From Lentisphaeria bacterium (lineage in GTDB: Bacteria; Verrucomicrobiota; Lentisphaeria; Victivallales; GWF2-50-93): 9,544 bases of DNA. Shown piece after piece: positions 1 through 9,544 of this stretch (position 1 is the stretch's first letter; each line of letters begins with the position of its first letter). A model generated the notes under the pieces. It was not told where the DNA came from, did not search any database, and saw nothing but the letters and a program-made list of their open reading frames with translations. Location of the stretch: positions 1 through 9,544 of the forward strand of contig JAGVIF010000371.1 in assembly GCA_020056205.1 (NCBI GenBank), given 5' to 3'. Position numbers and translations under genes: made by a program.

Positions 1-235
1 CATGCCTTGCCCCAAAGAGGTTGCCATCCCGAAAATTTTCGAGCGCTACAACCGGGGGCGGGTTTACGGCCTCTGGGACAATGCAAAAAAGGCTTATGCG
101 GATATCGGAACTCTTCCATGGGAGAATGGAAGCAAGGCTGATGCATGTGTCAAATGCGGGGTCTGCGAAGATAAATGCCCGCAAAAGATACCTATCCGCA
201 GGATGCTTGAAGAAGCTCATAAAAAGCTTTCCTGA
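1..235 (+). CDS. Aldo/keto reductase with C-terminal 4Fe-4S ferredoxin domain (3' end only)
   Basis: This is the last 77 residues of a protein whose start lies upstream of the window. The visible part opens with Met-Pro-Cys-Pro, the end of a first C-x2-C-x3-C-P type cluster motif. A second cluster motif follows at Cys49, Cys52, Cys55 and Cys59-Pro (C-x2-C-x2-C-x3-CP), then a KIPIRRMLEEAH tail. This order (CMPCP, IFERYN, ADACVKCGVCEDKCPQKIPI) is characteristic of the ferredoxin-like extension found on many aldo/keto reductases of anaerobes; the TIM-barrel catalytic part would be upstream and is not visible. The extension is expected to bind one or two [4Fe-4S] clusters in the cytoplasm; electron partner and substrate are unknown. 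It ends with TGA, and no convincing terminator follows; the next 660 bp are repeats, so it is probably not in an operon with the next gene. Confidence 0.88.
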   Translation, partial: MPCPKEVAIPKIFERYNRGRVYGLWDNAKKAYADIGTLPWENGSKADACVKCGVCEDKCPQKIPIRRMLEEAHKKLS

Positions 236-290
236 TCCTGCCGGAGGGAACGCTTTGTATTGAGAAGTTCTAAAGTTCGGGAATGCGAAA

Positions 291-386
291 GATTGAGAGT
301 GTCAATGTGTCAGAGTGTCAGAGTGTCAGAGTGTCGGAGTGTCAGAGTGTCGGAGCGTCGACGATTGGGTGATTGAAAGATTGAAA
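291..386. repeat. 8-bp-period degenerate tandem array, 12 units
   Basis: Twelve consecutive 8-bp units stay in one register. The first is GATTGAGA (291-298) and the second GTGTCAAT (299-306). Units 3 to 8 (307-354) are GTGTCAGA or GTGTCGGA, unit 9 is GCGTCGAC (355-362), unit 10 is GATTGGGT (363-370), and the last two are GATTGAAA (371-386). The period is not a multiple of three and there is no gene here, so the array is non-coding. The unit sequence drifts from a GATTGA type to a GTGTC type and back without losing the period. Units have no spacers between them, so this is not CRISPR. Confidence 0.9.
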
Positions 387-430
387 GATCTCTAAATCAC
401 CAAATAGGAAAAGAGAGCGCGAAAGTGTAG

Positions 431-449
431 CACAGGCATCTTGCCTGTG
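431..449. repeat. Small perfect inverted repeat (8-bp stem, 3-nt loop)
   Basis: CACAGGCA (431-438) and TGCCTGTG (442-449) are perfect complements around a TCT loop. A second short inverted repeat, AGGCT-AA-AGCCT, lies at 469-480. The downstream bases are an A-rich stretch and not a T-run on the + strand, so neither is a good terminator for the upstream gene. They look like dispersed intergenic palindromes in a gap that also holds several tandem arrays. Confidence 0.7.
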
Positions 450-537
450 AAAAAAGCAAAAAGGGGGAAGGCTAAAGCCTGAAGGGAGAAGGACGTTCGG
501 GAGTTTTTATTCTGAATCCTGAATTCTTGATTTTTAT

Positions 538-573
538 GTCCCTTGCGTCCCTTGTGTCCCTTATGTCTCTGCA
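538..573. repeat. 9-bp tandem repeat, about 4 units
   Basis: Units GTCCCTTGC, GTCCCTTGT and GTCCCTTAT are followed by a diverged GTCTCTGCA, in one 9-bp register. Because 9 is a multiple of three, a short reverse-strand open frame over it reads as a Lys-Gly-His-rich peptide, but that is a by-product of the repeat. Short ATTCTGAAT/GAATTC words flank it (509-530 and 590-603). This is simple-sequence intergenic DNA with no visible function. Confidence 0.8.
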
Positions 574-621
574 ATGAAAGAAATTGGAAATTCTGAATTC
601 TGACTACTTTTCAATCAATTG

Positions 622-645
622 CGATACCGATACCGACCCCGACCC
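622..645. repeat. 6-bp tandem repeat (CGATAC/CGACCC), 4 units, interrupted by a fold-back element
   Basis: Two CGATAC units (622-633) are followed by two CGACCC units (634-645). Another CGACCC appears at 758-763, immediately after the fold-back element. The array therefore looks as if it was split by that element, possibly with a 6-bp duplication of CGACCC, although a tandem array makes a true target-site duplication impossible to prove from one copy. Confidence 0.75.
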
Positions 646-759
646 GAATGGCGCTAAGTTAAGGATTTCGAAAAAAGTAACTCGGGTCTATTGACCCGAG
701 AGTCGCGGGTCAAATAGACCCGCGCTACCTCGAAATGCGCATTAACCTAGCGCCATTCG
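645..759. repeat. 115-bp fold-back (nested palindrome) element, MITE/REP-like
   Basis: The outer arms 645-662 and 742-759 are inverted copies with 17 of 18 positions complementary. Inside them ATTTCGA (665-671) pairs with TCGAAAT (730-736). The centre holds two perfect hairpins: CTCGGGTC-TATT-GACCCGAG (681-700) and CGCGGGTC-AAATA-GACCCGCG (704-724). The two central hairpins are near inverted copies of each other, so an alternative single long hairpin is also possible. The element contains no gene. Terminal inverted repeats, a small size and flanking CGACCC copies fit a non-autonomous mobile palindrome. A structured RNA or protein-binding site is an alternative. Confidence 0.75.
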
Positions 760-895
760 ACCCCGAAAAAAATAGAAGTGTAAAAGAAAGGACCTAACCT
801 CCAATCTGAATAATTCATGAGATATTGGTGGAACTTTTTTTACATATTTGTTGTCCAATGTGTTAGAACAAAAGAGGCTAAGCCCTGATTTAAAC

Positions 896-1777
896 ATGTT
901 GCCGAGAGAATTAATATCGCAGGTAAAGAAAATCGAGATAAAGACGCGGAAGACCGTCAACGAAATAACGGCAGGCGCCTATCACAGCGTATTCAAGGGC
1001 AGAGGCATAGAGTTTGACGAGGTTCGCGAATACACCGAAGACGATGATGTAAGAGACATAGACTGGAACGTAACCGCGAGAACCGGAGCCGCCCACATCA
1101 AAAAATATATTGAGGAGCGCGAGCTCAATGTCATACTTGCCGTTGACGCTTCATCATCAACGGCTTACGGCAGTTCAGATAAAAGCAAAGCGATGAGAGC
1201 CGTGGAAATGGGAGCCCTTCTCGCTTTCAGCGCCATAAGAAATCATGACAAAGTCGGACTGCTTTTTTTCACCGACAAGACCGAATTTTATCTGCCCCCG
1301 AAATCGGGAAGGCTTCACGGGATGAGGGTGATACGGGAACTGTTGGCGAGGGAACACAGCGGCGGCAAGACTAATATAGCCTCGGCGATGTCTTCTCTTA
1401 TGAGGCTCTTAAAAAAACACTCCGTCATTTTTTTGATGAGCGACCTTCTTGATGAAAAGGACTTTTCGAGAACCATGCGGAGCGCCGGAAAGAAGCACGA
1501 CCTGATAGCGATAAGGATACTCGATCCGGCGGAAAAGAATATTCCACACGGCATTCCGGATTTGATTTTGGAGGATTCGGAAGACGGCGGAATTTGCGAA
1601 TTTCGCGCGTCCTCTCCTTCGCGCGCGAAAGATTTCAGAGAAAAATCCGAACTGATTCACGCTCAAAATAAAGCTCTATGCGCGAAGGCGCAGGTTGACA
1701 TTATAGACATTGACTCTTCGGAAGATTTCATAAAGCCCCTGCTCAAATTTTTCAGGATGAGGGAAAGGAAACATTAA
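896..1777 (+). CDS. DUF58 domain protein (VWA-like, MoxR/Bat operon type)
   Basis: The protein has about 293 residues. It carries the DUF58 signature of a basic N-terminus (QVKKIEIKTRKTVNE), then AGAYHSVFKGRG, FDEVREY, DDVRDIDWN and TARTG. A VWA-like core follows with a MIDAS-type D84-A-S86-S-S88 and a second acidic residue at D183 in FLMSDLLDE. No signal peptide or membrane segment is visible, so it should be cytoplasmic. DUF58 proteins normally partner a MoxR AAA+ ATPase and membrane VWA proteins; two such membrane proteins follow, but no MoxR precedes it here. The start is uncertain: TTG at 848 and GTG at 860 are in frame upstream, but family proteins usually begin near the LPRELI segment, so I chose ATG 896. 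The best purine-rich stretch (about 871-877) is rather far from it. Family call is firm; the biochemical role is unknown. Confidence 0.88.
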   Translation: MLPRELISQVKKIEIKTRKTVNEITAGAYHSVFKGRGIEFDEVREYTEDDDVRDIDWNVTARTGAAHIKKYIEERELNVILAVDASSSTAYGSSDKSKAMRAVEMGALLAFSAIRNHDKVGLLFFTDKTEFYLPPKSGRLHGMRVIRELLAREHSGGKTNIASAMSSLMRLLKKHSVIFLMSDLLDEKDFSRTMRSAGKKHDLIAIRILDPAEKNIPHGIPDLILEDSEDGGICEFRASSPSRAKDFREKSELIHAQNKALCAKAQVDIIDIDSSEDFIKPLLKFFRMRERKH

Positions 1778-1780
1778 CCT

Positions 1781-1808
1781 AAGTTTTGCGGTTCAATCAA
1801 CCGAACTT
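1781..1808. other. Intra-operon hairpin between the DUF58 and two-TM genes
   Basis: CGGTT (1789-1793) pairs with AACCG (1799-1803) around a CAATC loop. AAGTT (1781-1785) pairs with AACTT (1804-1808), leaving a three-base bulge. No T-run follows, so it is not a standard terminator. It lies in a 55-bp gap and could stabilise or partly attenuate the transcript. Confidence 0.4.
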
Positions 1809-1832
1809 AAACTAAGCTCTTGATAATAAAAG

Positions 1833-2810
1833 ATGAAAAACTTTCTTAAATATTTGTTTTTCGCCGTCATAGCCGTCATAGCCGCTTTGACCCTTGTTTT
1901 TGCGGTTGCCGTGATAAAATATCGCTCTCTCGCGCCGTCCGCCGGTGTCAACGCGGAAGCATTGAAGCCTCTCGGCCCGGATAAAATCGGGATCGGAGAG
2001 AAACGGGAGTTTCATGCCGAAATTGAAGTTCCCTGGAGCCTCGTTCCTCTTGAATTTCAATTTGTCCTCCCGGACGGCCTCCAGGAAATCCCGCGCGATA
2101 ATTTTTCCCTGTCCGGTCTGGGCTGGGGCAAATGGAAATGGAAAATAAAAGGCCTCATTCAGGCGTATCGTCCGGGCGATTACAAAGGAATTGAAGGAGA
2201 ACTTATATATTCCGTGAAAGGGAAAAAACAGGAGCCGAAGAAAATACGGATATCGGATTTCACCGTCATCCCATTTGAACTCAAAGACGATAAAATAAAA
2301 ATAGCCGGAAAAATAGAACCGAAAAAAACTTATGCGAAATTCGCAAAAATCGCGTTGGCGGCTCTCGCCGTTTTTGGACTGATAATAGCGGCGCTGATTC
2401 TCATCAGGAAAAGGAAAATTGAAAAATTGAAACCGGTTTCCGCATGGCAAAAGGCGATGAATCTGCTCCGCGATTTGCGAATTTCGCACGAAAACGGCAT
2501 GATTGAGGCGCGAATTTGCGTGTCGCGTTTGACGGACATAATCAGAAATTATCTTGAAGAACGTTTTGGAATTGACGCTCCAACTATGACCACCGACGAA
2601 TTCCTCGAAAATTTAAAAAAACACAGAAGTCCTTTGCCGGATGAACATAAAAATTTTCTCTCCGAGTTTATGCGTTCCGCGGAGCTGGTTAAATTCGCCG
2701 CCGCGCCGGCGGATAGCGAACTGATCGGAAACGCAGTGTCGCATGCGGAAGTCTTAGTTCAATCGTCAATTCCCCATGAAGAAGACAACGGCGCGGACAA
2801 GTCAAGATGA
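1833..2810 (+). CDS. Two-TM membrane protein with DUF4381/BatD-like C-terminal domain
   Basis: 325 residues. An N-terminal hydrophobic helix (about 4-28) is followed by an extracytoplasmic, beta-rich region (about 30-165). A second membrane helix (about 173-191) ends in the basic stop-transfer RKRKIEKLK. The cytoplasmic tail (about 200-315) has the order AWQKAMNLL, TDIIRNYLEERFGI, T253-T-D-E-F-L258, and a late SAELVKFA. This order is typical of DUF4381 or BatD-type tails in MoxR/VWA operons, where a membrane protein sits between the DUF58 and VWA subunits. The stop overlaps the start of the VWA gene by four bases (ATGA), implying translational coupling. The start ATG 1833 has only a weak A/G stretch upstream, but it begins a clean membrane anchor. 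Domain assignment rests on motif order and context; the extracytoplasmic half is not recognised. The gene carries two exact copies of the 13-bp word TTGCGAATTTCGC (either strand). Confidence 0.8.
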   Translation: MKNFLKYLFFAVIAVIAALTLVFAVAVIKYRSLAPSAGVNAEALKPLGPDKIGIGEKREFHAEIEVPWSLVPLEFQFVLPDGLQEIPRDNFSLSGLGWGKWKWKIKGLIQAYRPGDYKGIEGELIYSVKGKKQEPKKIRISDFTVIPFELKDDKIKIAGKIEPKKTYAKFAKIALAALAVFGLIIAALILIRKRKIEKLKPVSAWQKAMNLLRDLRISHENGMIEARICVSRLTDIIRNYLEERFGIDAPTMTTDEFLENLKKHRSPLPDEHKNFLSEFMRSAELVKFAAAPADSELIGNAVSHAEVLVQSSIPHEEDNGADKSR

Positions 2811-3838
2811 AATTTGAAGCCTCATATTTTCTTCTTCTTCTGATCCCGCTTGCCGGACTTTTTATTCTTGCTTTGAAGAGAAAAGAGCCTTCGATAATAG
2901 TTCCGACCGTAAGACCGGCGTTCGGCGGCGGAAAAAAAACTGGAAAATCTTTCAGGAGCGCCTTCCCTCTTATCCTCGAATCTGCCGCTCTCGCTCTCGC
3001 TATTATCGCGCTTGCCAGGCCTCAAAAGGGGGTTGAAGAACTCAAGCAGCGGGCGGAGGGCATTGATATAATTATAGCCCTTGACCTCTCAGGGAGCATG
3101 CGGTCCATTGACGTTTCGGAAAAATACAATGATACGGACAAGCTCAGGAGGGCGCTTGCCAACGGCCTGCTCAAGGAGAGAATAGATGTCGCGAAAGACG
3201 AGATAAAAAAATTCATCGAACGCAGACCAAACGACCGGATAGGATTGGTAGCCTTCGCCCCCCTGCCCTATCTGGCATGTCCGCCGACACTCGACCACTC
3301 GTGGCTTTTGTCCCACCTTGAATACCTGAAACCCGGAGTGATAGGCGACGCGACCGGAATAGCCGGGCCTCTCGCAAGCGCCGTCAAACGGCTCGCGTCA
3401 ACGAATTCAAAGCGCAAGGTGATAGTCCTCTTCACCGACGGAAAAAACAATGTGGACGCGAGGGTAAGCCCCGAGCAGGCCGCGAAAATCGCAAATGACA
3501 ATAAAATAACAATACATACCGTTGGAATCGGGAGCGACAACGCCTTTATCATCATGGACGGGCTTTTCGGAAGGCAGCTGCAGAAAATAGAACATGAATT
3601 TGACGAAAAACTGCTTAAGACCATAGCCGAAACAACGGGCGGCAGATATTTTGCCGCCAGGGATTCCGATGGGCTTGAAAAAACTATGCAGGAGATAGAC
3701 AAGCTTGAAAAAACAAATTTTGAACAACCTAAATTCATAGACTACAGGGAACTGGCTTTTCCGCTTATAAGCATCTCGCTGACAATGATTTTCGCATCAT
3801 TCATCCTTTCAGGGACGCTACTGCTGAGACTGCCGTGA
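2807..3838 (+). CDS. BatA-like VWA-domain membrane protein
   Basis: 343 residues. It has the BatA/DUF1550-type layout: an N-terminal membrane helix (about 7-23), a short basic linker, a second helix (about 53-70, ending ALARPQKG), a VWA domain (about 88-300) and a C-terminal membrane helix (about 318-340). The metal-ion-dependent adhesion site is complete: D93-L-S95-G-S97, T183 in GDATGI, and D211 in LFTDG. The VWA domain should lie on the outer face of the inner membrane. BatA proteins are linked to MoxR ATPases and to oxidative-stress tolerance in Bacteroides and Leptospira; that role is only inferred here. Its start overlaps the previous stop (ATGA). Members usually are followed by a second VWA gene and TPR proteins (BatB, BatC); here the operon stops and an unrelated cassette begins. 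Confidence 0.9.
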   Translation: MKFEASYFLLLLIPLAGLFILALKRKEPSIIVPTVRPAFGGGKKTGKSFRSAFPLILESAALALAIIALARPQKGVEELKQRAEGIDIIIALDLSGSMRSIDVSEKYNDTDKLRRALANGLLKERIDVAKDEIKKFIERRPNDRIGLVAFAPLPYLACPPTLDHSWLLSHLEYLKPGVIGDATGIAGPLASAVKRLASTNSKRKVIVLFTDGKNNVDARVSPEQAAKIANDNKITIHTVGIGSDNAFIIMDGLFGRQLQKIEHEFDEKLLKTIAETTGGRYFAARDSDGLEKTMQEIDKLEKTNFEQPKFIDYRELAFPLISISLTMIFASFILSGTLLLRLP

Positions 3839-3869
3839 AGTAAGAATAGAGTAGAAGAGATTGATAATA

Positions 3870-3888
3870 AATTTTCCCCTTGAAAATT
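3870..3888. other. AT-rich hairpin after the VWA gene
   Basis: AATTTTC (3870-3876) pairs with GAAAATT (3882-3888) around CCCTT, 32 bp after the VWA stop. The stem is AT-rich and lacks a following T-run, so terminator activity is doubtful. It is listed because it is the only structure I see at the end of the membrane/VWA operon. Confidence 0.3.
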
Positions 3889-3918
3889 CAAAACAATACA
3901 ATAGAGTAAGGCGCGCAT

Positions 3919-3947
3919 TTGAGTGTTAAACAGAAAAACTATTTAAT
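3919..3947 (+). promoter_or_regulatory. Candidate sigma70-type promoter for the accessory cassette
   Basis: TTGAGT (3919-3924), a 17-bp spacer and TTTAAT (3942-3947) resemble -35 and -10 boxes, with four and five of six consensus matches. They precede the NYN gene start by about 53 bp. A direct repeat of TTGTTATC follows at 3951-3966, where a transcript leader or operator could sit. Two weak boxes in AT-rich DNA can arise by chance. Confidence 0.4.
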
Positions 3948-3999
3948 AACTTGTTATCTTGTTATCTGTTGAAGGTGAACAATACGTGGGGAGGCGCAT

Positions 4000-4602
4000 A
4001 TGGCTTTTTCGATAGTAGTCGATGGTCACAATTTCATCAACGACCTTGAGAGATACGGCAAAAAGAAGGAATATATTTTCAAGGAATTGTCCTTTCCCAT
4101 TCTGCACACCATCATTCAGGAGAAGTTGAAAATCGAAGGATTGTACAGCCATCCATTCATACATACCGAGTTTGTCAGTTCCGATCATGGTCAAATCGGG
4201 TCAATAAAGGGACAGGAAAGAGATGATCTGATAAAAAAATTGAAGCACGAAAAAGGTGTCACTGTGCTGGAAGTGCCCCAGCACACAGCCAACACAAACA
4301 AGCAGAAGGGTGTGGATTTCACGGTATTTATTAGAATGATGACGCTGGCAAAATCGCCAGCCCAGCCTCACGAGATCGTGCTATTTGCATCAGACACTGA
4401 TTACGTCCCAGCCCTGAAACTGATGGCTGAGATGGGTACACACGTCGTTATTGTCGGCTTCATGAAAAACGTACCTGTTCTGAACGAAGGCCTGGTCAAT
4501 GAAAGCTATCTGTCATTAGACTTGGAGCAGTTGTTACAGCAAATGGAAAAAGTATCAGATAACAAGGGCACTGCACCGGACGCAAAAAAGCTGCGCCGGT
4601 GA
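4000..4602 (+). CDS. NYN/PIN-like domain protein, predicted RNase
   Basis: 200 residues. The start is decided by a strong Shine-Dalgarno, GGGGAGG (3988-3994), five bases before ATG. The fold is the NYN (LabA/DUF88) branch of the PIN-like nucleases: SIVVDGHNF at the N-terminus (D8, N11), KGVDFTVFIRMMTLA (D106), and FASDTDYVPAL (D132, D134) followed by a GTHVVIVG strand. These four acidic positions are where the family coordinates metal. No membrane segment or signal is visible, so it should be cytoplasmic. It opens a small cassette with a winged-helix/nuclease-like protein 74 bp downstream. NYN proteins act in RNA decay, and some serve as effectors in defence or toxin systems; which applies here is not shown. 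The C-terminal 25 residues are hydrophilic and probably disordered. Confidence 0.85.
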   Translation: MAFSIVVDGHNFINDLERYGKKKEYIFKELSFPILHTIIQEKLKIEGLYSHPFIHTEFVSSDHGQIGSIKGQERDDLIKKLKHEKGVTVLEVPQHTANTNKQKGVDFTVFIRMMTLAKSPAQPHEIVLFASDTDYVPALKLMAEMGTHVVIVGFMKNVPVLNEGLVNESYLSLDLEQLLQQMEKVSDNKGTAPDAKKLRR

Positions 4603-4643
4603 GTTTTTCGTTAGACCTCAACAATAAAGGGAGATGCTTACAG

Positions 4644-4663
4644 CGATGAGATACGATGAGATA
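4644..4663. repeat. Perfect 10-bp tandem duplication next to a ribosome-binding site
   Basis: Two adjacent copies of CGATGAGATA lie directly before GAGGAAA (4664-4670), the probable Shine-Dalgarno of the next gene (start 4677). A short frame from ATG 4634 or 4646 reads through the repeat and ends at 4690, overlapping the next start by 14 bases. It could be a leader peptide, but nothing else supports it. Confidence 0.6.
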
Positions 4664-4676
4664 GAGGAAACTTGCT

Positions 4677-5411
4677 ATGAAACAGTATGAAGCAGTTATT
4701 AAAGTTATGCAAGAGAATGGTGGCTATGCTACTCTTGGCTCGCTAAATCAAAATGTATTTAAGGTTGAGAATTGTAAATGGAAAACAGAAACTCCATTTG
4801 CAAGTATCCGTCGTATCGTTCAAGACGAGCGTTTTTTCTTTAAGATACGCCCGGGTTTGTGGGCATTAAAAGCCTATAAAGGCAAGCTACCACCTGAAAT
4901 CCTGCCGGTTAAAAACCAGCCAAAGGCAAAAGAAGAAGAATGCTCTCACGCCTATTATCAGGGGTTGCTCGTAGAAATAGGAAATTTAAAGGAATATAAA
5001 ACATTTGTCCCCAATCAGGATAAAAACAAGCTTTATCTTGGCAGAAAGCTTTCAGAGGTTGTAACGGTTTCCGAGATATATAAGTTCACTTATGATGAAA
5101 TAGTCCGCACAGCTCGAACGATTGATGTGATGTGGTTTAACGATAGAAATATGCCTGCAAGCCTTTTTGAAATTGAACATTCCACGGATATGTATAGGTC
5201 TCTTCTGAAGTTTCTTGAACTTCAGGATTTTTACACCAACTTTCGCATAGTTGCTGATGAGGTCAGAAGGAAAGAATTTCAAACAAAAGTATCAGCAGAT
5301 GCTTTTAGGTCTATAAGTAAGCGGGTCGGATTTTGGTGTTACGACAATGTGCCCGAACTCCACTCAAAAACAAGCGAACACATAAGTATAGAATCAAAGC
5401 TTAAATTGTAG
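4677..5411 (+). CDS. HARE-like winged-helix protein with PD-(D/E)XK-like nuclease domain
   Basis: 244 residues in two parts. Residues 1-70 (KQYEAVIKVMQENGGYATLGSL, then KTETPFASIRRIVQDERFFFKIRPGLWAL) follow the HARE-HTH pattern, a winged-helix fold attached to several restriction and chromatin proteins. Residues 90-235 look like a restriction-endonuclease fold. E100 lies in LLVEIG, then come TFVPNQD and T148-I-D150-V-M-W, and a strand F164-E165-I-E167-H-S-T. A helical LLKFLELQDF segment, FRIVADEVRRKEF and a final VGFWCYDNV strand complete it. The D150 ... E165-x-E167 arrangement resembles the D-E-x-E active site of BamHI more than the common E-x-K. It is preceded by GAGGAAA and lies in the same cassette as the NYN gene, so a DNA-recognition-plus-cleavage defence role is plausible but inferred. 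The family is one I recognise by pattern and cannot name. Base composition is AT-richer than in the flanking operons. Confidence 0.72.
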   Translation: MKQYEAVIKVMQENGGYATLGSLNQNVFKVENCKWKTETPFASIRRIVQDERFFFKIRPGLWALKAYKGKLPPEILPVKNQPKAKEEECSHAYYQGLLVEIGNLKEYKTFVPNQDKNKLYLGRKLSEVVTVSEIYKFTYDEIVRTARTIDVMWFNDRNMPASLFEIEHSTDMYRSLLKFLELQDFYTNFRIVADEVRRKEFQTKVSADAFRSISKRVGFWCYDNVPELHSKTSEHISIESKLKL

Positions 5412-5424
5412 AAAGGAAGTGTAA

Positions 5425-5655
5425 ATGTCATTTAAACCTTATTTCAAAAAAATATCAGAAGAGCTAAGCAATAATATTATTATGTTCAAGAAAAAATACC
5501 CTGAGACAAAAAATAATTGTTATCCTGAAGAATTAACAAAAGTATTTGAAAAATATATTGAGGTTTATGGGCATGCATACTGTATGGATGTGGGTAGTGA
5601 AAGGAAAAAACTATCCAGATTGCTCTATAGAGCCTTAAATGAAGTGAAGCATTGA
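5425..5655 (+). CDS. Small hypothetical protein (76 aa) of the cassette
   Basis: The gene starts 13 bp after the previous stop, with a good Shine-Dalgarno AAAGGAAG (5412-5419) five bases before ATG, so it is almost surely co-transcribed with the nuclease-like gene. The product is lysine- and glutamate-rich, probably helical throughout (KISEELSNNIIMFKKKYPE, ELTKVFEKYIEVYGH, RKKLSRLLYRALNEVKH). It has no signal peptide or membrane segment, and its two cysteines form no metal motif. I recognise no family. Its size and last position would fit an accessory or immunity subunit, but nothing shows this. It is AT-rich like its neighbour and unlike the flanking native operons. Confidence 0.7.
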   Translation: MSFKPYFKKISEELSNNIIMFKKKYPETKNNCYPEELTKVFEKYIEVYGHAYCMDVGSERKKLSRLLYRALNEVKH

Positions 5656-5698
5656 AGTCAAGTATCAACGGGTGGCAGGATCGGTTGATGAGAAATTA

Positions 5699-5824
5699 GC
5701 GACCTACTGCGAGTTTCGCAGTTTTATCAAAATGAAACTAAATTGATAAAATCGGTGTTCATCGGTGGTGAAGTTTCAAAGGAGCGGACTACTGTGGAGA
5801 CCGCAGTTTTATCAATAAGAAACT
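5699..5824. repeat. Direct repeat pair (about 41 bp each) carrying conserved hairpins
   Basis: Copy 1 is 5699-5739 and copy 2 is 5784-5824; about 31 of 41 positions agree. Each holds a 7-bp stem with a 3-nt loop: ACTGCGA-GTT-TCGCAGT (5706-5722) and ACTGTGG-AGA-CCGCAGT (5791-5807). Changes between copies keep the pairing: one A-T pair became G-C and one C-G pair became T-G. The shared word AGTTTCAAAGGAG occurs at 5772-5784 and 5865-5877, the second just after a weaker hairpin (5847-5864). TTTTATCAA (5722-5730) also pairs with TTGATAAAA (5743-5751). An ATCGGTG direct repeat sits at 5751-5770. The whole 5656-5946 gap is non-coding. Confidence 0.75.
5706..5728 (+). terminator. Possible intrinsic terminator of the accessory cassette
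   Basis: A perfect 7-bp stem (5706-5712 with 5716-5722), loop GTT, is followed by TTTATC about 50 bp after the 76-aa gene. The T-run is short. The second repeat copy has the same stem followed by TTTATC (5791-5811). Tandem weak terminators would fit the end of the cassette, but the repeated nature makes a mobile or dispersed element equally possible. Confidence 0.4.
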
Positions 5825-5885
5825 GCCAAGAAAGAGACACGCTAAAGCTGTGAACTCCGACAGCAGTTTCAAAGGAGGATTCAGA

Positions 5886-5905
5886 ATTGCCGATTGCCGA
5901 TTTCC
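5886..5905. repeat. 7-bp tandem repeat ATTGCCG, about 2.8 units
   Basis: ATTGCCG occurs at 5886-5892 and 5893-5899, followed by a diverged ATTTCC. It lies after a strong ribosome-binding-like AAAGGAGG (5871-5878). From that site only an 11-codon frame (TTG 5887 to TAA 5922) opens, which I do not call as a gene. Confidence 0.55.
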
Positions 5906-5946
5906 AAATTCTTCACCGCTAAAGAACGCTCAAAAAAAACAAGAAT

Positions 5947-7278
5947 ATGACGGATAGTAGTATTAAGAAGGTTGTTCCGTTGGATGCCGGACTGCTTGAA
6001 TCCGGCGTCAAAAAATTTTCAATACGCTCGCTTTCGACCGCGAGCATAAGGGAAATAGTCCGGTTGTCTTCCGAATTGGAGAAGGACAGCGGGGTTCCAT
6101 TCATCCACATGGAGATGGGCGTGCCTGGTCTTTTTCCGAATCAGATAGGGGTTGCCGCCGAGATAGAGGCGCTCGAGCGAGGAGTGGCGTCTAAATATCC
6201 GAGCATAGAGGGCATTCCGGAATTGAAGGCCGAAATCTCAAGATTCGCGAAACTTTTTATGGATATAGAAGCGTCTCCTGAGAACTGTTTCCCGAGCGTA
6301 GGCTCAATGCAGGGATCGTTCGCGGTGTTTATGACCGCCTGCAGAAGAGACAAAAAAAAAGACACTACGCTCTTTATAGATCCCGGCTTCCCTGTGCAAA
6401 AGCAACAGCACAAAGTCCTCGGCCTCAAATATGAAAGTTTTGATGTGTATAATTTCAGAGGGACAAAACTCCGCGCAAAAATCGAATCATTCCTGAAAAA
6501 AGGAAATATCTCGTCCGTCATATATTCAAATCCGAACAATCCTTCGTGGATATCTTTTACGGAAAAGGAACTTGAGACGATAGGAAGCCTTTGCGATGAA
6601 CACGATGTCATTGCTATTGAAGACCTTGCATATTTCGCAATGGATTTCCGGAAGGATTACTCTGTTCCCGGGCAGGCTCCGTTCCAGCCGACGGTCGCGA
6701 AATTCGCAAACAATTACATCGTCCTTGTGTCAAGCTCGAAAATTTTCAGTTACGCCGGACAGCGAATCGCCGCGATGATAGTTTCCGGAAAGCTTTTCAA
6801 TCGAAAATTCAAAGACCTCGAAAATTATTTTGGGACTGATAATTTCGGGCGCGCCATTGTCTACGGCGCTTTATACAGCCTTTCATCAGGCACATGCCAC
6901 TCATCGCAATTCGCCCTTGCCGCCATGCTGCGCGGCGCAAACGACGGGCTTTTTAATATCGTTTCGCAGGTCAGGGAATACGGGGAACGCGCGGCATTGA
7001 TGAAAAAAATATTTACCGGCAACGGGTTCAGAATCGTTTATGACAAAGACGGGGAGGAAGACATCGCCCACGGATTTTACTTCACGCTCGCGTATCCCGG
7101 AATGAATTCGGAGGAGCTTCTCTTCGAACTTCTCCGCTACGGGGTAAGCGCGATTTCCCTTAAAATAACGGGAAGCGATAGGGATGACGGAATACGCGCC
7201 TGCGTGTCGCTTGCCGATCGCGGAGCGATATCGGAACTCGGGCGCAGAATGATTCTTTTCAGGAAGGAGCATAAGTGA
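5947..7278 (+). CDS. PLP-dependent aminotransferase, class I/II (fold type I)
   Basis: 443 residues. The fold-type I aminotransferase landmarks are in order: IHMEMGVPG near the N-terminus (about 53-61), YPSIEGIPELKAEI (about 84-97), a glycine-rich cofactor-contact region VGSMQGSF, and SNPNNPS with N198. E225-D226 with Y229 follows (PLP pyridine nitrogen and ring), then the Schiff-base lysine K265 in SSSKIFSYAGQR with R273. Near the C-terminus R417 in IRACVS is a good candidate for the substrate carboxylate arginine. The enzyme should be cytoplasmic and transfer or eliminate an amino group; substrate cannot be read from sequence. No clear Shine-Dalgarno precedes ATG 5947, but FSIRSLSTASIREIV soon after matches a normal family start. 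Its stop overlaps the GTG start of the Aas-type gene, so the two are translationally coupled. It contains one copy of the 13-bp word, on the minus strand. Confidence 0.88.
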   Translation: MTDSSIKKVVPLDAGLLESGVKKFSIRSLSTASIREIVRLSSELEKDSGVPFIHMEMGVPGLFPNQIGVAAEIEALERGVASKYPSIEGIPELKAEISRFAKLFMDIEASPENCFPSVGSMQGSFAVFMTACRRDKKKDTTLFIDPGFPVQKQQHKVLGLKYESFDVYNFRGTKLRAKIESFLKKGNISSVIYSNPNNPSWISFTEKELETIGSLCDEHDVIAIEDLAYFAMDFRKDYSVPGQAPFQPTVAKFANNYIVLVSSSKIFSYAGQRIAAMIVSGKLFNRKFKDLENYFGTDNFGRAIVYGALYSLSSGTCHSSQFALAAMLRGANDGLFNIVSQVREYGERAALMKKIFTGNGFRIVYDKDGEEDIAHGFYFTLAYPGMNSEELLFELLRYGVSAISLKITGSDRDDGIRACVSLADRGAISELGRRMILFRKEHK

Positions 7279-9544
7279 ACAAAACGGATCAAAGCCCTTC
7301 GCTCTTCTCTCTCGCCGCGACACAGTTTCTCGGCGTTTTCAACGACCACGTGTATAAGACTGCCGTCGTCTTTACGGTAATAGGCGCATCGTCCGACTAC
7401 TCCAAAAACGCCGCTTTCCTCGCGATGATAACTTTTATCTACGCCATCCCTTTTATAATTTTCCCCGCTCCGGCGGGATATTTCGCCGACAGATTCTCCA
7501 AGCGCAATGTGATAGTTCTCGCGAAAGCTGCGGAGCTTGTGATAATGTTATTCGCGTTGCTTTCTTTTGCGAATTTCGCAAATTGGGGAATGCTTCCGCT
7601 GCTGTTTGTGATGTTTTTAATGTCGGCGCAGAGCTGTTTTTTCAGTCCGGCTTTCAACGGAATTCTGCCCGAATTTTATACTGAAAAGAAGATATCAAGA
7701 GTCAACGGAATCGTAGGCATGATAACAATGATCGCCGTTCTCTGCGGCATGGGAGCCGGAACAGCGGTCAAGGCCGCCGTCGGAGACAAAGTTTATATAT
7801 GCGGACTCTTTTCGGTCGTCATATCAGTAGCCGGACTGCTCACATCTCTCAGAGTGGAGACCGGGCTTCCGGCCGCTCCGGCAAAGAAATGGTCGTGGCT
7901 GTGGTTCTCGAAATTCCGCGAAGGGATGAGATACATCTCGTCAAACCGCCCTCTTTTTCTCGCCGTTCTCGGAGACGCGTATTTCAGCGGAATAGGCATA
8001 GCTTTTCAATCTATTCTCGTTATATACGGAAAATTTTCGCTCGGCATGACAAATGAAAAAGAGCTTGGCGCGCTTCAGTTAATTACCGCCGCCGGAATCG
8101 GATTTGGATGTTATCTTGCCGGAAGAATTTCCGGCAGAAGGGTCGAGCTTGGCCTTGTCCCCTACGGAGCGGCCGGAATTTTCATCTTCATGCTGCTTTG
8201 CCTAGTCCAGGGACCTGCCGTTAAAATCGCGGGAAACAGCATATTTCCGTTTTTGCTCTGCTCCCTTGCGATGACCGGAATATCGGGCGGGCTTTTCATT
8301 ATTCCCCTCAGGGCTTACATACAACAGAAGAGCGACCCCGCGCGCAGAGGGGAAGTCATAGCCAACGCGAACGTCCTGGCTTTCATCGCGATAGCGGTCA
8401 GCGGGATAGCGCTTTTCGCTTTAACATCCGGGGTCTCAGGCGCCGACGCGGAAATCCTCCGCGGCGTCGAAAAGATAAGACTGTCCTGCCTGAATTTCAA
8501 TCCTGACAGTCTCATAATTTCAATATCTTTTATGACGGCGGCGGTTACCATTTACGCATGTTACCTCCTGCCGCTCTTCGTGCTTCGCTGCGCGATAGTA
8601 ACTCTCACCAACATTTTTTACAGGATAAGGCTTGAGGGGGAGGAAAATATTCCGGAGACAGGCCCCGCTCTCATAGTTTCCAATCACGTTACATTTGTGG
8701 ACGGACTTCTCATAAGCGCCTGTTCTTCAAGGATAGTCAGGTTCATGATGCATCAGGATTACTACCGGCATCCGCTCTTCCATTATTTTGTCAAGTGGGC
8801 GGGTTTTATCGAAGTGCCGGACGGCGGCAAAACCGGCGCGTTGAAGGTTATGTTCAAAAAAGCCCGCGAGTCTCTTAGGAATGGAGATATTCTGTGTATT
8901 TTCCCTGAAGGACGCCTTACGCGAAACGGAGTGATGAGCGAGTTTAAAAGCGGCTTTTCGAAAGTTATCCCGGAAGACCTTGACGCGCCGATCATCCCCG
9001 TCCGGCTTGGAATGATATGGGGAAGCATATTCAGCCACTACTACGGGAAGATAAAACTCAGATGGCCGACGAAACTCCCGCATCCGGCCTCGGTAACGGT
9101 CGGCAAAGCAGTTTCCAAGACATTGTCCCCGTTTGAGTTGCGGCAGATAATCTCCGGGCTTGCGGCTGACGCCGAGTCAATCCCGCGCAGAGAGGAACGC
9201 CCCGTGCATTATCAGTTTGCGAAAATCGCAAAACGCCACCCCTTCAGGAAAACTCTCTACGACTACGACAAGGGCGGAATTGCGAATTTCGCGCTTCTAT
9301 ACAAATCCGCGCTTCTCAGCGGAGAAATCCGCAGGCTTGACAGTTCCGATTACGAATACGTGGGAGTGTTCATGCCTAATTGCGTAGCCGCAGCGGTCTC
9401 GATTCTCGCCGCGCTCAACGCCGACAAAGTTCCGGTTGTGCTCAATTACACGGTTTCAAAGGATACCATGCGTTCGGCGATAGACAAAGCCGGGATAAGG
9501 CTCATTCTCACGAGCAGAGCCTTTCTTAAAAAAGCAAAAATAGA
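7275..9544 (+). CDS. aas: LplT-PlsC-acyl-ACP synthetase fusion (Aas type), 3' end beyond window
   Basis: This is an open frame of 756 codons with no stop before the window ends. The start is GTG 7275, overlapping the aminotransferase stop (GTGA), with AAGGAG (7264-7269) five bases upstream. Residues 1 to about 440 are an MFS transporter of the LplT kind: QFLGVFNDHVYK, PAGYFADRFSKRN, FFSPAFNGILPE, and GLFIIPLRAYIQQKSDPARRGEVIANAN. Residues about 455-620 are a PlsC acyltransferase with H471-V-T-F-V-D476 (HX4D) and F543-P-E-G-R547. From about 645 an AMP-binding domain begins (VGVFMPNCVAAAV, VVLNYTVSKDTM, AGIRLILTSRAFLKKAKI). Escherichia coli has the same order as separate lplT and aas genes; fused forms are known. 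The role is to flip lysophospholipid inward, activate a fatty acid and reacylate it at the inner membrane. The catalytic P-loop of the synthetase lies beyond the window. Two exact copies of the 13-bp word occur in it. Confidence 0.92.
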   Translation, partial: MNKTDQSPSLFSLAATQFLGVFNDHVYKTAVVFTVIGASSDYSKNAAFLAMITFIYAIPFIIFPAPAGYFADRFSKRNVIVLAKAAELVIMLFALLSFANFANWGMLPLLFVMFLMSAQSCFFSPAFNGILPEFYTEKKISRVNGIVGMITMIAVLCGMGAGTAVKAAVGDKVYICGLFSVVISVAGLLTSLRVETGLPAAPAKKWSWLWFSKFREGMRYISSNRPLFLAVLGDAYFSGIGIAFQSILVIYGKFSLGMTNEKELGALQLITAAGIGFGCYLAGRISGRRVELGLVPYGAAGIFIFMLLCLVQGPAVKIAGNSIFPFLLCSLAMTGISGGLFIIPLRAYIQQKSDPARRGEVIANANVLAFIAIAVSGIALFALTSGVSGADAEILRGVEKIRLSCLNFNPDSLIISISFMTAAVTIYACYLLPLFVLRCAIVTLTNIFYRIRLEGEENIPETGPALIVSNHVTFVDGLLISACSSRIVRFMMHQDYYRHPLFHYFVKWAGFIEVPDGGKTGALKVMFKKARESLRNGDILCIFPEGRLTRNGVMSEFKSGFSKVIPEDLDAPIIPVRLGMIWGSIFSHYYGKIKLRWPTKLPHPASVTVGKAVSKTLSPFELRQIISGLAADAESIPRREERPVHYQFAKIAKRHPFRKTLYDYDKGGIANFALLYKSALLSGEIRRLDSSDYEYVGVFMPNCVAAAVSILAALNADKVPVVLNYTVSKDTMRSAIDKAGIRLILTSRAFLKKAKI

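Follow-up and report, generated by a model that had tools for sequence, protein, structure and literature searches.

Words that are iterated across a whole genome are uncommon and informative, and DNA uptake sequences, Chi and matS have each pointed to a cellular system. The matS site of MatP in E. coli, GTGAC-RNY-GTCAC, occurs in few copies and in the terminus region only. In one study (PMC4390886), the highly iterated palindrome HIP1 (GCGATCGC) and the alternate HIPs appear as GC-rich palindromes that are iterated throughout genomes and are exchanged for other palindromes in some relatives, and another (PMC3630211) describes the DNA uptake sequences of the Neisseriaceae as present in hundreds to thousands of copies, often genic, with dialects that leave a short core constant. 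In 569 genomes surveyed for spaced motifs, pairs of palindromic pentamers such as CGAAA-N19-TTTCG of Mycobacterium were reported, and “Lentisphaer-” has 0 occurrences in the main text of that survey (PMC5217627). Here we analyze a contig of 9,544 nucleotides (JAGVIF010000371.1, positions 1 to 9,544 of the forward strand; assembly GCA_020056205.1) from a Lentisphaeria bacterium of the Victivallales, hereafter called the window, in which a preliminary description had noticed a repeated 13-mer. The repeat unit is an interrupted palindrome with a fixed gap, YGCGR-N3-YCGCR ([T/C]GCG[A/G]-N3-[C/T]CGC[A/G]), of which the 13-mer noted first is one spelling. We suggest, with a probability of about 0.4, that it is recognized by a homodimeric DNA-binding protein that acts across the whole chromosome. 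The word is of the iterated-palindrome kind, and a literature search on such a word, or on the class, revealed no paper about such a word in Lentisphaerae.

The genome to which the window belongs (G000) comprises 2.886 Mb in 597 contigs and is 81% complete. For each word the reversed form served as control, and genes were defined by simple longest-open-reading-frame calls. In the G000 sample, 20 of the 40 contigs had been picked for holding the word and the other 20 by number only; the samples of G194 and G132 were partly picked from contigs with matches, and those of G161 and of families f53, f6 and f9 were taken by number. Alignment of the sites yielded TGCGA-N3-TCGCA, with AAT, AAA or ACT favored at the centre. 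When the gap in TGCGA-N(0..11)-TCGCA was varied over 295 kb of G000, a gap of three gave 87 copies and any other gap 0-2, and the same scan of the G161 sample gave 68 copies for N3 and 0-3 for the other gaps. Likewise, GCGA and TCGC were found 136 times at gap 3 and 4 times at gap 0 in the G000 sample, so that the word is not a contiguous one of the GCGATCGC type. Coding sequences from four genomes were pooled to analyze single deviations. In the outermost and innermost base of each half-site, transitions were observed 33, 24, 20 and 23 times, when 2.6, 2.4, 3.0 and 3.9 were expected (in sum, 100 versus 11.9), transversions at those positions were much scarcer (23 versus 11.9 expected among those listed), and changes inside GCG/CGC were near chance (28 versus about 21 expected among those listed). 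YGCGR-N3-YCGCR was adopted as the working form because the tolerated changes are mainly transitions at the two ends of each half-site. The preliminary description had treated the 13-mer as the unit; it is replaced by an interrupted palindrome with lineage dialects, whose full symmetry spans 13-17 bp across lineages.

The exact 13-mer occurs 226 times in G000 (116 and 110 copies on the two strands) and its reversed form 0 times. In the 20 G000 contigs that were chosen by number only, a third-order Markov model predicts 0.17 copies of GCGAAATTCGC and 0.01 of TGCGAAATTCGCA, and 16 and 13 were found, which makes these words the most over-represented 11-mer and 13-mer, respectively. Flank preferences around the aligned sites are gone within about four bases and, together with the genome-wide number of copies and the empty reversed control, this refutes a mobile repeat or local duplication as the origin of the copies, the latter an alternative that the preliminary description had itself named. 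In a sample of 194 genomes from the phylum, the exact 13-mer reached 226, 130, 131 and 43 copies in the four members of the window's family (f1) and 0-2 in all others. The form TGCGA-N3-TCGCA was found in all eight f1 genomes (between 509 and 1041 copies each, the reversed control having 1 to 12), in two of the four genomes of f53, a family of the same order, with 1184 and 231 copies (14 and 18 in the other two), and in f6 with 60 copies in one genome and 3 in one; the remaining 123 of 137 genomes contained 0 to 32. The degenerate form YGCGR-N3-YCGCR was enriched 9.5- to 112-fold over its reversed control in 14 of 387 phylum genomes, namely six of f1 (all that were sampled), 4/4 of f53, G129 of f6 and three of genus g132 in f9, a family of the same class, and was at most about 6-fold over the control in the remaining 373. 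Its total in G000 amounts to 978 copies in 2.886 Mb, or about 340 per Mb.

Other spellings were found in some of these relatives. The two f53 genomes with low counts use CGCGA-N3-TCGCG (G200; 19 versus 0.3 expected in 50 kb) and CCGCG-N5-CGCGG (G203; 14 versus 0.3 expected in 58 kb). In 160 kb of the g132 genome G371, TTTGCG-N5-CGCAAA was present 8 times versus 0.04 expected and TGCG-N5-CGCA 41 times versus 1.3 expected. Word and control counts for TTGC-N7-GCAA were 987/61, 854/57 and 1142/51 in g132 genomes, 553/20 in G086 of f9 and 1169/9 in the AT-rich G129, and the word was low in G309 of f9 (143/61) and in G204 of f6 (71/28). Every dialect, from TTGC-N7-GCAA through CCGCG-N5-CGCGG, keeps the same register about the centre in four families, and the samples of positive genomes range from 29 to 61% G+C. 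No such palindrome was seen in small samples of G002 (f2), G218 (f3) and G114 (f10) of 60, 60 and 23 kb; as the degenerate form is 2.2-, 5.8- and 3.3-fold over control in these genomes as a whole, they may contain weak or diverged forms. Two sequences recorded as metagenome-assembled genomes of Victivallis vadensis have 8 kb in common with these samples, DYRX01000007.1 with the start of G132:C35 and CAMCYE010000014.1 with G161:C14. Other contigs with at least four copies of GCGA-N3-TCGC and 0 of its reversed form are labeled Lentisphaera, Lentisphaerae and, in one case, Kiritimatiellota. Going by these labels, the class concerned would be Lentisphaeria.

Selection or drive acts on the DNA, since 1-5% of TGCGA-N3-TCGCA remain in each of five genomes once synonymous codons are shuffled: observed and expected numbers were 75 and 1.93 for G000, 64 and 1.33 for G161, 27 and 0.57 for G194, 11 and 0.50 for G132, and 9 and 0.13 for G202. 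CGCG-N5-CGCG behaved similarly in G200 (44 versus 3.2) and G203 (37 versus 5.0), as did TTGCG-N5-CGCAA in G371 (16 versus 0.3), and the negative genome G002 was at shuffle expectation for CGCG-N5-CGCG (12 versus 12.0). The reversed control word stayed near the shuffle mean in most sets, the largest departure in the four f1 samples being that of G132 (6 versus 1.9). The claim of the preliminary description that an iterated palindromic signal, and no shared peptide, is at work here is borne out by the genome counts, the fading flanks and these shuffles.

The window contains nine YGCGR-N3-YCGCR palindromes, which are given below with no strand assigned.

1595..1607: TGCGA-ATT-TCGCG, in the DUF58 gene
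2333..2345: TGCGA-AAT-TCGCA, in gene 1833-2810 (without Pfam match)
2476..2488: TGCGA-ATT-TCGCA, in gene 1833-2810
3481..3493: CGCGA-AAA-TCGCA, in the VWA/BatA-like gene
5708..5720: TGCGA-GTT-TCGCA, intergenic by the gene calls used; absent from the earlier list
6696..6708: CGCGA-AAT-TCGCA, in the aminotransferase gene
7568..7580: TGCGA-ATT-TCGCA, in gene 7275-9542; at the same place in 7/8 family genomes
9218..9230: TGCGA-AAA-TCGCA, in gene 7275-9542; in 3/8 family genomes
9281..9293: TGCGA-ATT-TCGCG, in gene 7275-9542; in 1/8 family genomes (the genome of the window only)

The preliminary description had listed six exact copies of the 13-mer, at 1594-1606, 2475-2487, 7567-7579 and 9280-9292 on the plus strand and at 2334-2346 and 6697-6709 on the minus strand, and two one-mismatch copies on the minus strand at 3482-3494 and 9219-9231; all eight are found there. 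A T precedes five of the six exact copies, as had been noted, the exception being the copy at 9280 with an A before it. With up to two mismatches the 13-mer has 15 matches in the window versus 0.98 expected (200 dinucleotide shuffles, maximum 5), several of the 15 being a single palindrome counted on both strands. As side observations, the reading frame at 7275-9544 is long and cut by the contig end, whereas relatives with full frames encode about 1170-1207 amino acids, and by eye its product looks like a fusion of a transporter with an acyltransferase and one more domain; an NYN-domain (PF01936) protein is encoded at 4000-4602, between the VWA gene and the aminotransferase gene.

Comparison between genomes showed that some sites persist from one genus to another. 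The orthologues of gene 7275-9542 share 50-66% amino-acid identity; the one family genome without site 7568 is a single base off at that place, and three more positions carry a site in other orthologues and none in the genome of the window. Among 65 ordered reciprocal-best pairs, 26 site comparisons were possible, and 10 sites were shared versus 1.02 expected from codon use; these 10 represent five distinct sites, each counted in both directions of the G000-G161 pair. Thus, G161 keeps 5 of 13 G000 sites, four of them with a changed central codon, when codon use predicts 0.33. Outside the sites, 46% of codons are identical at conserved residues between these two genomes, and 23 of 94 GCG alanine codons stay GCG. 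Some sites are thus held or regained at the DNA level, and most turn over.

A viral contig of 36.9 kb, whose genes for terminase, major head protein, head-tail adaptor, tape-measure protein and DnaB are those of a tailed phage, carries eight TGCGA-N3-TCGCA in the 31.2 kb examined and no reversed form, a density like that of the presumed host, although three of the eight are the query matches by which the contig was selected. In its whole record, TTGC-N7-GCAA occurs six times and its control once. The viral scans comprised at least 120 stretches in the first and 15 and 80 in two more, and by motif counts this one contig was clear. A second viral contig, IMGVR_UViG_2889877346_000001 (60% G+C), is suggestive, with three TGCGA-N3-TCGCA, six YGCGR-N3-YCGCR and a reversed control of 0 in 13.6 kb.

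Along genes, the position of 319 sites showed no significant trend (Kolmogorov-Smirnov p 0.18), and the first tenth of genes was low in sites (17 of 319). On the 2.73-Mb contig of G289, 73 plus-strand matches, among those listed, fit a uniform spread (Kolmogorov-Smirnov p 0.18, Kuiper p 0.06). Helical phasing of neighboring sites was considered and rejected, as there was no signal at 10, 10.5 or 11 bp and the codon period alone was seen. One 20-kb stretch of G161 (G161:C8:1-20000) has zero palindromes; it encodes two tyrosine integrases, a Y-family polymerase and a sigma-70-like factor.

Among other explanations, a DNA uptake signal, in which a competence receptor prefers the word and transformation with DNA of kin has enriched it, seems doubtful. 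Positive genomes contain from hundreds to about two thousand copies each, most of them within genes, in dialects around a constant core, the integrase-bearing stretch just mentioned has none, and ComEC was found in 47 of the 48 genomes tested. To our knowledge, however, the known DNA uptake words are all asymmetric, whereas this palindrome is two-fold symmetric. The Neisseria words likewise combine dialects with a constant 3-base core and placement in core genes, yet the Neisseria 10-mer is asymmetric (PMC3630211). Moreover, there is no surplus of intergenic copies (11 of 136 in the G000 sample, about 10% of which is non-coding), and the word is present on a phage contig. The preliminary description had proposed co-occurrence with competence genes as a check; ComEC does not discriminate, being as common without the word (31/31 genomes) as with it (16/17). 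Its broader proposal, an uptake-sequence or HIP1-like pattern, therefore holds for the iterated palindrome of HIP1 type and is weakened for uptake by the symmetry, the non-discriminating ComEC and the phage carriage. We regard as unlikely that the word is of the HIP type and is made or kept by methylation, either because modified mismatches are repaired or because modified sites are selected for. A sharp GCG/CGC core beside purine/pyrimidine degeneracy does resemble many enzyme recognition sites, and PF02384 (N6_Mtase) was detected in 17 of 17 positive genomes, but it was also present in 12 of 13 other genomes (E 0.001). A recognized length of 10 or more bases over 13-17 would be unusually long for a type II enzyme, the recognition sequences of which are usually shorter. 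Cyanobacterial HIP1 and alternate HIPs go with matching methyltransferases (PMC4390886), but here PF01555 was undetected in 7 and PF00145 in 6 of the 17 positive genomes, and both were undetected in G161, G202, G371 and G289, which are 86-96% complete. The earlier idea of an orphan methyltransferase is weakened only, the families tested being PF01555, PF00145 and PF02384. Between positive and other genomes, the word is tracked by none of ComEC, PF01555, PF00145 and PF02384.

An RNA hairpin in mRNAs, with a 5-bp stem and a 3-base loop, is very improbable. Most sites are transcribed with genes, as such a hairpin would require, but sense-strand changes that retain pairing as G-U do not outnumber the disruptive ones (51 versus 60 observed, about 10 expected each), for which reason the hairpin was rejected; other stems with the same loop are not similarly enriched, and some copies are intergenic. 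Hardly credible at all is that the word arises from preferred codons, from a preferred peptide such as A-K-F-A or from mobile repeats that were copied. Of the 136 sites in the G000 sample, which is 89.6% coding, 125 are coding, and frame 0, encoding Ala-x-x-Ala, is the commonest among these, yet all three frames occur (80/30/15), unevenly used but differing as the preliminary description had stated. The peptide-preserving shuffles described above refute such an artefact, and the peptide is ruled out as an explanation of the word.

A dimeric binding protein thus remains our preferred explanation. As in operators, the site is symmetric with fixed half-site spacing, and because of this two-fold symmetry and spacing the reader would be a homodimer. 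A single protein with a drifting preference may underlie all dialects, and its role would be on resident DNA and not in uptake, for example in nucleoid organisation. In the same tentative sense, the word may be a chromosome-wide palindromic address with dialects in one register that at least one phage has adopted, and neither of the HIP1 nor of the uptake type. Several observations weigh against this. The binding protein was not found, and 20 proteins beside intergenic sites, a subset of the neighbors, included no evident regulator. In the best-sampled gene, 7275-9542, sites 9218 and 9281 recur in just three and one of the eight genomes, and the site was not shared in 16 of the 26 ordered ortholog comparisons. 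Sites are mildly clumped (variance/mean 1.42, standard deviation 0.16, 5-kb bins), and 12 of 791 genes have four or more versus 2.7 expected. Spacer sequences, read along the sense strand of genes, are unbalanced (AAT 70, ATT 41; AAC 19, GTT 0), which may be caused by codon constraint. Dialects around a constant core would, by analogy, also suit a DNA uptake sequence, and the phage argument, made on one contig, is partly circular because the host of the phage was inferred from the word itself. Among these neighbors, RecR next to two paired sites of G203 and, at a single site of G202, an RdgC-like protein that scored below the Pfam cut-off were considered and set aside, each being a single case and too few for an autoregulation argument.

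Other repeats were noticed in the same genomes. Contigs of G000 (L124, L126, L131, L134 and L137, for example) contain GTAAATATTCACCGAA ... TTCGGTGAATATTTAC inverted repeats, which are intergenic as judged by eye; their arms often enclose further inverted-repeat cassettes, so that they look like elements of the REP (repetitive extragenic palindrome) or MITE (miniature inverted-repeat transposable element) type with nested insertions. In the G161 sample (L157-L176), GAATATCCAATAT and TCGGTCGTCGGTC are also strongly over-represented and tandem-like.

The signal is strong, lies in a little-studied group and comes with natural dialects, which would provide a natural experiment on the co-evolution of a global DNA signal and its reader, a question that is still open for HIP1. 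Some assemblies with the word consist of two or three contigs (G276, G289), so that a comparison of positive with negative sister families offers a way to look for the reader protein.

In comparison with known systems, the word resembles HIP1 and the alternate HIPs as a GC-rich palindrome, strongly over-represented genome-wide and swapped for other palindromes in some relatives, although its density in G000 is below the about 500-2500 per Mb of high-frequency HIPs (PMC4390886). Unlike the contiguous HIP1, GCGA-N3-TCGC has an obligatory 3-bp gap and 13-17 bp symmetry and belongs to another phylum, and unlike the general link of HIPs to methyltransferases, PF01555 and PF00145 were undetected in four positive genomes. 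With the uptake sequences of the Neisseriaceae (PMC3630211) it shares its nature as a short enriched word with lineage dialects around a constant core, its copy number and its often genic placement; it differs in two-fold symmetry, fixed gap, carriage by a phage and a ComEC that does not discriminate. The pairs of the spaced-motif survey (PMC5217627) are likewise palindromic pentamers at fixed spacing spread among genes, with a different sequence and spacer. Finally, matS has the same 5-3-5 palindromic plan and is also dispersed within the chromosome, whereas the word described here has at least hundreds of copies and is distributed across the single large contig that was examined.

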